A DNA stretch of 40,667 nt from Chloroflexota bacterium (GTDB taxonomy: Bacteria > Chloroflexota > Anaerolineae > Caldilineales > Caldilineaceae): contig JAPLGZ010000242.1 in assembly GCA_026389895.1 (NCBI GenBank), positions 1 through 40,667 on the forward strand, given 5' to 3'. Below are positions 4,841-37,837 of the stretch, piece after piece; positions within the stretch are counted from its first letter, which is position 1, and every line of letters starts with the position of its first letter. Below the pieces are notes generated by a model. That model searched no databases and was not told the DNA's origin. It worked only from the letters and a program-made list of their open reading frames with translations. Position numbers and translations under genes: made by a program.

Positions 4841-5901
4841 TGTGAATTATAGATCACGGTTTTTTCAATTTCGTCGGTCACGATACCAATCGCCATGGGC
4901 TGGCGCACCCCTGGTAGGGCGATCACATCATAGATTTCGCGCATTTCACCTTCGATAAATAACCAATGGGCGATTTGTCCGGTCCGCAGGTCAATGACGA
5001 AGATGCCAAGGCGGGGTTTTGCATTGCGTTGCTGGAGTTCCTCATCCAGACCTAACCCCGAGTAAATATCCCCTTCGCGCGGTTTGGACGCCCCGACCAC
5101 GGCATAATCACCCACAAAACAGAGCCCACGTAAAAAGGCGGGACCAAACGTCAACGGCTCGAACTGACCCCGAACAAGGTCTACCCAGCCAAATTGTCCG
5201 GTGCCAGAATTCGTGACCCATAAACGATCGCGATACCAGCGCGGTGAATGTGGCATGGATAGCCCACCGGTCACTACTTCATTTGTGGCCACATCGATGA
5301 TCACGCCGCCGCCTTTGCGTCTATCGCGCCAGCTATCAAAGATTGCGGTTTGGCTGACGCTAGTGACATAGGCTGGTCGCCCGTTTTTCATGGCGAGCCC
5401 ATTCAGATGGCAGCGATCACCCGGTGCTGGATCCGGTAAATCGGCTAGATGCGGTGGCCGCCACAAGGGGATATAACTATATTGGTCACTGACCGTCGCT
5501 AGACAACCAAAGCGTGTATTCACAAAAATCACCCGCCCTTGACGCTCGACGGCCATATCGTGGGTGCCAAGGGTGCCGGTGGTATAGACTTTGCGTGGAA
5601 TGTACTGGCGATCATAGCCGTCGGCGGTCTGCTGATTGGTGGGTAGGGCATTCTCCAGGCGCCAAATCTGATAGCGGGAGCTGACATAGATCGTATCGAC
5701 CCCATCCGCTGCCAAGCCCAAACAGCGCGGAAAAGTGCGCTCAAAGACAGATAATTGTCCATCTGATTTCAAGCCCACCAGCATCAATTTTAGTGGCGGA
5801 TGTGTGAAGGCGAGGCTGATTTTCTGTTCTGCTAGCCAAGTTGTGAAGTGACGCGATACTGAAATTTCAAATAAAGCGTTATCGGACTGTGGGTTACTCA
5901 T
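4837..5901 (-). CDS. TIGR03032/DUF4915-like protein, copy 1
   Basis: This 354-aa protein is the first gene of the tandem pair and shares the same blocks as the downstream copy: TTWLAEQKISLAFT, SSRYQIWRLENAL, VIFVNTRFGCLATVSDQY, DRCHLNGLAMKNGRPAYVTS and MPHSPRWYRDRLWVTNSGTG. No enzyme motif with assigned residues is known to me for this family; members are found with sulfotransferase or TPR genes in other bacteria. ATG 5901 is preceded by only a weak SD, so a start a few codons away cannot be excluded. A minus-strand promoter candidate lies about 130 bp upstream (-10 at 6037-6042). Cytoplasmic location is inferred from the lack of a signal sequence. Confidence 0.85.
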   Translation of the reverse strand: MSNPQSDNALFEISVSRHFTTWLAEQKISLAFTHPPLKLMLVGLKSDGQLSVFERTFPRCLGLAADGVDTIYVSSRYQIWRLENALPTNQQTADGYDRQYIPRKVYTTGTLGTHDMAVERQGRVIFVNTRFGCLATVSDQYSYIPLWRPPHLADLPDPAPGDRCHLNGLAMKNGRPAYVTSVSQTAIFDSWRDRRKGGGVIIDVATNEVVTGGLSMPHSPRWYRDRLWVTNSGTGQFGWVDLVRGQFEPLTFGPAFLRGLCFVGDYAVVGASKPREGDIYSGLGLDEELQQRNAKPRLGIFVIDLRTGQIAHWLFIEGEMREIYDVIALPGVRQPMAIGIVTDEIEKTVIYNSQ

Positions 5902-5970
5902 GCGGGCTAAGACTCTAGAAATGATGAATACGCGATTGAAAAACTTAGCATAAAGTAAGGTCGTGAAATA

Positions 5971-6023
5971 AATTAAAGCCCCTATTGCTCTCTGGAAATC
6001 CGGTTAAAAATGGGGATTTAATT
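5971..6023. repeat. 12-bp inverted repeat in the leader of the TIGR03032 operon
   Basis: AATTAAAGCCCC (5971-5982) and GGGGATTTAATT (6012-6023) are complementary except for one position and are separated by 29 nt. The pair lies between the candidate minus-strand start site (~6030) and ATG 5901. It could therefore form a leader hairpin or bind a dimeric regulator. No U-tract follows on either strand. Confidence 0.4.
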
Positions 6024-6036
6024 CTTGCTTGGCATA

Positions 6037-6066
6037 ATTATAGGATAGGTATGGAGGCTTTGTCTG
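6037..6066 (-). promoter_or_regulatory. Candidate sigma70 promoter for the TIGR03032 pair
   Basis: On the minus strand a perfect TATAAT (complement of 6037-6042) sits 18 nt downstream of CAGACA (complement of 6061-6066). Transcription would begin near 6030, leaving a leader of about 130 nt before ATG 5901. The -35 is only a partial match. Confidence 0.4.
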
Positions 6067-6491
6067 TACGTAATTTCAAGTAGATTTTGGGCGAATCATC
6101 TATTATCGAGCCCTCTATGCCTGCGATGAAGATAATTGCGCCGTGGTGTGGATAAGGGGTGTTAACGAGTCGATATCTGACCAGTTCCCGAAAGATTTTT
6201 TCTGAAATTTGGGCTGACCAGAGGCAATTTTTAGCGGTTGCAGAGTCGAACCATGATCGGGCATAATTTGCCCGCGAAATGAGCGTCTCTTGCCTTTCCG
6301 AGCTTGCAACCAGGCCCACTTGCCGCCACCAGCGCCAATATGGGGAAGTCGATAGAACTAGATAGATGAATTAGGATGATTTCTGATTATTAGTATAATT
6401 AAAAAGTAAAATCAGACCGTAAGATCATAACTAGCGGAGTATGTCTGGTTTTTGGTGGCGAAATTGTCCAGGAGAAAAAGGAAAGTGAACC

Positions 6492-6683
6492 ATGAATAAG
6501 GAACAAATGATCAAGCTCCTGGTGCTCTTGCAGCTATACTATGAATCTCACCCCGATGTGCAGAGTCAGGCAACAGAAGTTCACATGGCTGTATTTCAAT
6601 CTGTCGTACAAGAATTTAATGAAAAGCCAGTCGATGTCTATCTAGCGACGATGAAAGAAAAACAAGCCTTACGCCGCGAATAA
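6492..6683 (+). CDS. Small hypothetical protein, 63 aa
   Basis: The ATG follows a purine-rich SD (AGGAGAAAAAGGAAAG, ending about 7 nt upstream), which is the main argument for a real gene. The product is acidic and probably all-helical (MNKEQMIKLLVLLQLYYESH, then a Val/Gln/Glu-rich second helix and a KEKQALRRE tail). It has no signal peptide or known motif. I do not recognise the family. It is the first of three small SD-led genes on this strand in a region with lower G+C than the flanks. The next gene begins about 170 bp downstream. Confidence 0.6.
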   Translation: MNKEQMIKLLVLLQLYYESHPDVQSQATEVHMAVFQSVVQEFNEKPVDVYLATMKEKQALRRE

Positions 6684-36241: not shown

Positions 36242-37837
36242 ATGAGTATCACAACGAAAAACAAAGCGGCCAAAACGAAACGTCCTAGAATTAAGGTGCA
36301 TAGTTGGCGTTATGAAGATATCCCTGGTGTGATCGCTTGTCATCGGGCCGCCTACCCTGAATATGAAGAGGAAGCCTATTACACTTCCCGTTTTTATGAG
36401 ATGCAATTTGCGGCCTTTCCTGAGGGGCAGATCCTGGCCGAAATTGATGGACAAGTGGTCGGGTATGCCACTTCGTTGATTGTTCAACTAGACGATAATG
36501 CCCACTCGTATACGTACGAAGAGATAACCGGCGGCGGCACCTTTGCCACGCACGATCCAAGTGGTGATACGCTCTACGGGGCCGACATTGGCGTTGATCC
36601 GGCCTACCGCGGCCTGGGCATTGCCGGTTTGCTCTACGAACAGCGCAAACGGCTCATGCGGCGCTACAATTTGCGGCGCATGGTGGCTTATGGACGAATT
36701 CCTGGTTACAACGCCGTGGCCGGCAAAATGACCGCCGAGCAATATGTCGAAAGGGTGCTGAAGGGCGAGATCAAAGATCCCTCACTGGCGGCTCATCTCA
36801 AGGCTGGTTATCAAGTGGGGCGTGTTTTGCTCGACTTTCTGTGGGACGATTCCAGCCTGAACTATTCTACCTGGCTGGAGATGCCCAACCCTAACTATCA
36901 ACCCGAAAAACGGCAAATTGCGGCGGCGCCGTTGCAACGACCCGTGCGCAAGATCCGCATCTGCGCGGCTCAATATCTGATGCGCCCGATTCGCTCGTGG
37001 GAAGAATTTGAACAGACGGTGATGTTTTTTGTCGACACCGCCGACACTTATCATTGTCACTTTTTGGTTTTTCCTGAATTGTTCACGGCGCAATTGTTTA
37101 GCTTGATGCCATCCGACCTGGATTCGCGCAACGCAATTACCCAGTTGGCGAATATGACCGACCATTATATCGACATGTTTACCCGCGCGGCGGTCGAACG
37201 TGGGCTCTATATTATTGGTGGTTCTCAACCGGTGATCCGCAACGGCAAGGTGTACAATGTGGCGCATCTTTTTACGCCGAGCGGCAGTGTTTATACACAG
37301 GATGCGCTACATATTCCGCCGAATGAACGTAAGGATTTTGGGATTGAGCCGGGGGAAGAGATCAAAGTCTTTGATACCCCATTAGCGAGAATTGCCATTC
37401 AGGTCTCTTATGATATCGAGTTCCCAGAAGTCTCGCGCTTGCAGACGCTATCTGGGGCCGAGATTATTTTTGTGCCCTTCAGCACCGATGAAAAGAAAGC
37501 CTATGATCGGGTGCGCTACACAGCGCAAGCTCGCGCCGTCGAAAATTTTGTCTATACCGTGATCACCGGCAACGTGGGCAATCTACCGACTGTCAAGAAT
37601 TATCTGATTAATTATGGCCAAGCGGCGGTCTTTACGCCCAGCGACTTTGCCTTTCCACCGAGCGCCACCGCTGGTGAAGCTGAACCAAACGTTGAAACCG
37701 TCATCATCACTGATCTGGATTTGACCAGCCTAGCGCAACAACGAGATCTGGCTAGTGTCCGTCATCTCTATGATCGGCGCGTCGATCTCTATGATGTGCG
37801 CGCGAAGAAAGCCGTCAAAATTGAACGCACAGAGTAA
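36242..37837 (+). CDS. GNAT acetyltransferase fused to a catalytically degenerate nitrilase-fold domain
   Basis: A 531-aa two-domain protein. Residues ~15-190 form a GNAT domain with the acetyl-CoA loop in ADIGVDPAYRGLGIAGLLYE. From ~235 a carbon-nitrogen hydrolase domain follows, an arrangement known from bacterial GNAT-nitrilase fusions such as the YhcX type. Of the Glu-Lys-Cys triad only the Glu is clear (E279, LVFPELFTAQLF). The site where the catalytic Lys is expected reads QDALHIPPNE (A355), and the nucleophile site reads IQVSYDIEFPE with Ser389 in place of Cys. The hydrolase half is therefore probably inactive while the acetyltransferase half looks intact. It may act as an acyl-amide binding or scaffold domain. 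ATG 36242 has only a weak SD. Confidence 0.9.
   Translation: MSITTKNKAAKTKRPRIKVHSWRYEDIPGVIACHRAAYPEYEEEAYYTSRFYEMQFAAFPEGQILAEIDGQVVGYATSLIVQLDDNAHSYTYEEITGGGTFATHDPSGDTLYGADIGVDPAYRGLGIAGLLYEQRKRLMRRYNLRRMVAYGRIPGYNAVAGKMTAEQYVERVLKGEIKDPSLAAHLKAGYQVGRVLLDFLWDDSSLNYSTWLEMPNPNYQPEKRQIAAAPLQRPVRKIRICAAQYLMRPIRSWEEFEQTVMFFVDTADTYHCHFLVFPELFTAQLFSLMPSDLDSRNAITQLANMTDHYIDMFTRAAVERGLYIIGGSQPVIRNGKVYNVAHLFTPSGSVYTQDALHIPPNERKDFGIEPGEEIKVFDTPLARIAIQVSYDIEFPEVSRLQTLSGAEIIFVPFSTDEKKAYDRVRYTAQARAVENFVYTVITGNVGNLPTVKNYLINYGQAAVFTPSDFAFPPSATAGEAEPNVETVIITDLDLTSLAQQRDLASVRHLYDRRVDLYDVRAKKAVKIERTE

Follow-up and report, generated by a model that had tools for sequence, protein, structure and literature searches.

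A GNAT-nitrilase fusion clade in Caldilineaceae predicted to have lost nitrilase catalysis while conserving the nitrilase domain

Pseudoenzymes are common in general, and fusions of a GNAT domain to a nitrilase domain are a known protein type. Branch 12 of the Pace and Brenner scheme is the RimI-fused nitrilase branch, and Bacillus YhcX is a GNAT-nitrilase fusion comparable in architecture to the protein described here. YhcX has been annotated as a putative nitrilase, and in B. amyloliquefaciens SQR9 its deletion reduces the production of indole-acetic acid by 24% (PMC4558970). Lnt of E. coli has the nitrilase fold and is inactivated when any triad residue or E343 is changed to Ala (PMC5500890); its C387S variant is reported to form an acyl-enzyme intermediate with undetectable activity (PMC3850990). 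BCG_2279c, a mycobacterial Lnt homologue and natural Cys-to-Ser case, is unable to replace active Lnt (PMC3850990). It is likewise a nitrilase-superfamily protein with its catalytic Cys replaced by Ser, but it is a membrane Lnt without a GNAT domain and has lost only the Cys of the triad, whereas the fusion described here has also lost the Lys. Our search of one literature collection for GNAT-nitrilase fusions and nitrilase pseudoenzymes found nothing relevant.

The window (the whole 40,667-nucleotide stretch analysed, contig JAPLGZ010000242.1 of assembly GCA_026389895.1, from a Chloroflexota bacterium of the family Caldilineaceae) encodes one such fusion (Table 1). The window protein has an N-terminal GNAT domain (Pfam Acetyltransf_1 at residues 37–149) followed by a CN_hydrolase domain (residues 248–501), an architecture that matches the layout of the RimI-fused branch. 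Membership of the second half in the nitrilase superfamily is borne out by both homology and fold: Foldseek matches an AlphaFold model, built with 29 homologues, to mouse Nit2 (2w1v; E 1.1e-18, TM 0.82 by target length) and to other amidases. The model is good inside each domain (mean pLDDT 83.8) but, with a pTM of 0.57, little informative on the packing of the halves.

Table 1. Location of the features discussed; coordinates refer to the window unless another locus is named.
Feature	Location	Strand	Remarks
Whole fusion gene	36242..37837	+	531 aa plus stop; open reading frame
GNAT-fold domain, aa 1–224	36242..36913	+	Pfam PF00583 8.1e-10; profile matches to PKS GNAT-like domains
CoA-binding loop R123-G-L-G126-I-A (R/Q-x-x-G-x-A)	36608..36625	+	sequence
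His185, aligned with CurA catalytic His389	36794..36796	+	profile alignment
Nitrilase (CN-hydrolase) domain, about aa 238–525	36953..37816	+	Pfam PF00795 4.4e-22; AlphaFold model vs 2w1v
Glu279, catalytic Glu kept	37076..37078	+	codon GAA
Ala355 at catalytic Lys site	37304..37306	+	codon GCG; alignment to solved nitrilases
Pro359, in place of Thr of K-L-H-[IV]-T motif across whole clade	37316..37318	+	alignment
Glu362, second active-site Glu kept, Lnt E343 position	37325..37327	+	invariant in all aligned homologues
Ser389 at catalytic Cys site; Gly in two relatives	37406..37408	+	codon TCT; alignment
Clade members			window, G398 (L047), G329 (L006), G364 (L048), G246 (L008), G400 (L049)
Fusion with Glu-Lys-Ser, L010	G318:C276:2090-3628		other family of same class
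Free-standing GNAT, L095	G256, 5895-6623		same bacterial family
Operon-like run, L087	G000:C284, 5755-9306		window's genome
C45 + two-GNAT clusters, other genomes of family	L091 1358-8260; L092 774-8528; L093 3989-8248		nitrilase nearby in L091, L092
CN-hydrolase homologue L102	G000:C634:3810-4544		window's genome
CN-hydrolase homologue L109	G000:C834:1797-2363		window's genome

The Glu-Lys-Cys triad of an active nitrilase is incomplete in this protein: Glu279 is kept, but Ala355 and Ser389 replace the Lys and the Cys. In an alignment with mouse Nit2 (2w1v) and PH0642 (1j31), A355 falls on the catalytic Lys within 'KIHL' and S389 on the Cys of 'CYD'; of the 35 fusion homologues, 28 carry K and C at these two sites. 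The original prediction had named these three residues and the codons GCG and TCT, and direct reading and alignment bear it out. No new conserved Lys or Cys was found near the active site in the clade alignment; the nitrilase domain has only two Cys left, Cys241 and Cys272, and other clade members do not consistently conserve the second. A takeover of the active site by another Lys or Cys was accordingly rejected, and the residue assignment stands. The equivalence of Glu362 with Lnt E343 was set by motif position, with E343 taken from PMC5500890.

We searched 1,231 genomes, some of which were drawn repeatedly, together with a species-genome collection, and obtained 35 distinct fusions whose catalytic columns could be read. 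Both replacements are common to six Caldilineaceae genomes, each of a different genus, with Lys to Ala in all six and, as the second replacement, Cys to Ser in four and Cys to Gly in two. The suggestion that a clade of such fusions might share the replacements thus finds its answer in six of six members. Outside this group, 28 of 29 fusions have Glu-Lys-Cys and one has Glu-Lys-Ser. The six form one clade in two whole-protein trees (support 100/99 and 97/99), which was not recovered in a tree of the GNAT half, where fewer columns are available. Within the class that includes the clade, intact-triad fusions occur in further families (L009, L011, L012, L088–L090), and outside it in Desulfobacterota, Krumholzibacteriota and Gemmatimonadota (L050–L054, L062, L063); they share domain order and length with the clade and are 55%–69% identical over most of the protein, but keep Glu-Lys-Cys where the Caldilineaceae clade has Glu-Ala-Ser/Gly. 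The distribution of the fusion is patchy: it is present in 6 of 46 Caldilineaceae genomes and in 3 of 25 and 5 of 56 genomes of two sister orders, and in a draw of 301 genomes of the phylum the window held the only fusion found. No relatives were found in viral contigs.

The single Glu-Lys-Ser fusion (L010) keeps the Lys and has an altered K-L-H-I-S-M motif. Its grouping with the clade is not rejected (AU p = 0.345), and it may be an intermediate in which the Cys was lost first and the Lys second; it may equally represent an independent loss.

Because the replacements recur in six independently assembled genomes, with 73%–92% identity in the nitrilase half, they are not attributable to chance or sequencing error. 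The named family records carrying the fusion are metagenome assemblies, which would favour assembly errors or a decaying gene, but six separate assemblies are concordant, with open reading frames and strong selection. We rejected error on the concordance of the assemblies, and regard error and decay together as exceedingly improbable.

In 14 sister fusions, 135 columns never vary, and the clade as a whole departs from only five of these (A181S, K355A, T359P, C389S/G and P508H), three of which belong to catalytic motifs. A random choice of five of the 135 columns would include both the Lys and the Cys with p about 0.001, and Thr359 as well with p about 2.5e-5. Biopython YN00 gave mostly no values, as synonymous sites are saturated, so codon models were instead fitted to pairs of sequences by likelihood. 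Saturation persists in several pairs; where omega could be estimated for the nitrilase half it is 0.02–0.06, with omega = 1 rejected in every pair (likelihood-ratio statistics 199–328). Invariant columns number 181 of 288 in the nitrilase half of the clade, vs 170 of 287 in six fusions of the Desulfobacterota group that have the triad, and Glu279, Glu362, Asn339, His357 and Tyr390 are all invariant in the clade. Since the replacements hit the active site while purifying selection and conservation persist, catalysis appears to have been dropped and the domain kept. An ancestor of the six genera very probably lost amidase activity and retained the fold, as the replacements are clade-wide and at the active site of a domain under strong purifying selection.

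Judged from these residues, amidase or nitrilase turnover has in all likelihood been lost, because the Cys site holds Gly in two of six members, the Lys is found in none of six, Lnt is inactivated by Ala at its triad residues or E343, and the Cys-to-Ser cases in Lnt fail. A nucleophile is evidently not needed, given that site 389 alternates between Ser and Gly. The nitrilase half could still be a hydrolase or transferase of altered chemistry, employing Ser389 with Glu279, or a water activated by Glu279 and Glu362: Ser, a possible nucleophile, is present in four of six members, both Glu are kept, and Lnt C387S is reported to form an acyl-enzyme intermediate (PMC3850990). The Gly in two members and the missing Lys in all six speak against such chemistry, as do the lack of detectable activity of C387S and the failure of BCG_2279c to replace active Lnt (PMC3850990), and we consider it very unlikely. 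The change from a working enzyme domain to a conserved non-catalytic one is thus very probably what the alignments record. The original prediction had read the hydrolase half as probably a pseudoenzyme that perhaps presents a substrate to the acetyltransferase; the pseudoenzyme part is well supported by the clade-wide replacements, the Gly at the nucleophile site in two members and the purifying selection, but the 'acetyltransferase' label is uncertain.

The GNAT half has the features expected of its superfamily, namely the domain itself and an acyl-CoA loop of the form R/Q-x-x-G-x-G/A. R or Q occupies position 123 of this loop throughout; at position 126, the near family has G and the distal group R. 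By profile, the nearest solved relatives are CurA (1.3e-9), 7uci/7ucl (3.6e-8) and GphF, so that this half lies closer to PKS GNAT-like decarboxylase domains than to ordinary acetyltransferases. These loading-module domains (CurA 2ree, 7uci/7ucl, GphF 6mfc) share with the fusion an H-x-x-x-G motif and the position of the catalytic His. In CurA, a Thr355/His389 pair decarboxylates malonyl-CoA, His389 lies at the general-acid Tyr position of canonical GNATs, and T355V drastically reduces decarboxylation (PMC3701320). CurA numbering was placed by the 34-residue spacing of the Thr/His pair in the chain (T140, H174), not from the PDB file. The fusion has the His of this pair (His185, kept in the clade and near sisters and replaced by Gln in distant fusions) but not a Thr or Ser at the Thr355 position, which is Gly151, invariant in all homologues; its partner is moreover a nitrilase fold, not a PKS. 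Decarboxylation by the CurA mechanism, raised by the CurA and GphF matches and lowered by the Gly in place of the Thr, is not supported.

In the profile alignment, His185 also occupies the place of the Tyr general acid of canonical GNATs. The missing Tyr does not rule out acyl transfer, because other GNATs use other residues, and transfer with the His as acid is possible. The earlier 'acetyltransferase' is uncertain, given the His in place of the Tyr and the closest profiles, CurA and GphF; this half is better called a GNAT-fold acyl-CoA enzyme of uncertain exact chemistry. A free-standing GNAT (L095) from the same bacterial family, 52% identical to the GNAT half of the fusion and lacking a nitrilase domain, falls just outside the near fusions in the GNAT-only tree.

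What would a nitrilase domain without amidase or nitrilase chemistry do for its partner? We favour, as more probable than not, the reading that it now acts as a dimerising, ligand-binding, non-catalytic partner of the GNAT half. It would dimerise, as nitrilases do, and the old pocket would bind a small ligand that tunes or positions the GNAT reaction, with the GNAT half, its CoA loop intact, carrying whatever catalysis remains. All three elements of this reading, a bound ligand, a dimer and contact of one half with the other, are inferred. Nucleophile loss is compatible with binding, because Cys mutants of nitrilases with ligand exist in the PDB: 5h8l is a C158S N-carbamoylputrescine amidohydrolase whose ligand is apparently putrescine, and 6ypa is a C146A amidase with glutaramide bound. 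By this analogy, the domain could plausibly bind a ligand without turning it over. Removal of the Lys leaves Glu279 and Glu362 without a counter-charge, so that the ligand might reasonably be guessed to be a cation or an amine. The nitrilase half possibly presents a substrate to the GNAT half, and, more speculatively, the ligand might be the acyl acceptor itself.

The main rival to ligand binding is that the nitrilase half is a pure scaffold, kept only for the folding and dimerisation of the fusion, with a pocket that binds nothing. The retained fold and the strong purifying selection over the length of this half would fit such a role. The pocket residues are kept among six fairly similar proteins, a weak discriminator between binding and mere structure, and their conservation is not clearly above background. 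An idle pocket might be expected to relax, however, and the five pocket residues listed above are invariant; we regard a pure scaffold as possible but rather unlikely. The GNAT half may not need a partner, because GNAT relatives without a nitrilase domain exist. An extension of the ligand-binding reading, in which the pseudo-nitrilase is family-wide an amine or cation sensor, or an acceptor-docking site, for the GNAT-fold enzyme, seems to us doubtful. If true, removal of a Lys from between two Glu would have made of a hydrolytic pocket a charged site that controls or feeds its partner.

The sequences predict a real loss of nitrilase catalysis, shared across the clade and maintained by selection, in a fusion type already known. 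It amounts to a clean natural experiment: the fusion is otherwise conserved, the replacements are nearly confined to the active site, and full-triad sister fusions exist for side-by-side comparison with the clade. Such a comparison would address how the nitrilase half serves its GNAT partner, a question that extends to the triad-bearing fusions.

Operon context was rejected as a functional clue: neighbours vary across the clade and are not conserved, with the exception of an M42-type peptidase, RecX and one large upstream ORF common to the window and G398. Elsewhere in the window's genome, an operon-like run (L087) holds genes for a free nitrilase with intact Glu-Lys-Cys, a C45 acyltransferase/hydrolase, a GNAT and a bacterial globin. 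In two further genomes of the family (G117 and G394), two GNATs related to that of the fusion lie within about 8 kb of sequence that also includes a C45 protein and a nitrilase; a third (G336) has both GNATs and the C45 protein. Such clustering of unfused relatives of both halves hints at a single pathway that uses GNAT as well as nitrilase chemistry.

The same genome encodes two other CN-hydrolase homologues (L102 and L109) that keep the Glu and the Lys but carry Gly in place of the Cys (LMVGSDLAFPEV and VVLGSDVLYPEV, respectively), so that Cys-less nitrilase folds are not unique to the fusion in this genome. The loss described here is only moderately surprising, given these two homologues, the published Cys-to-Ser nitrilase homologue and the commonness of pseudoenzymes.
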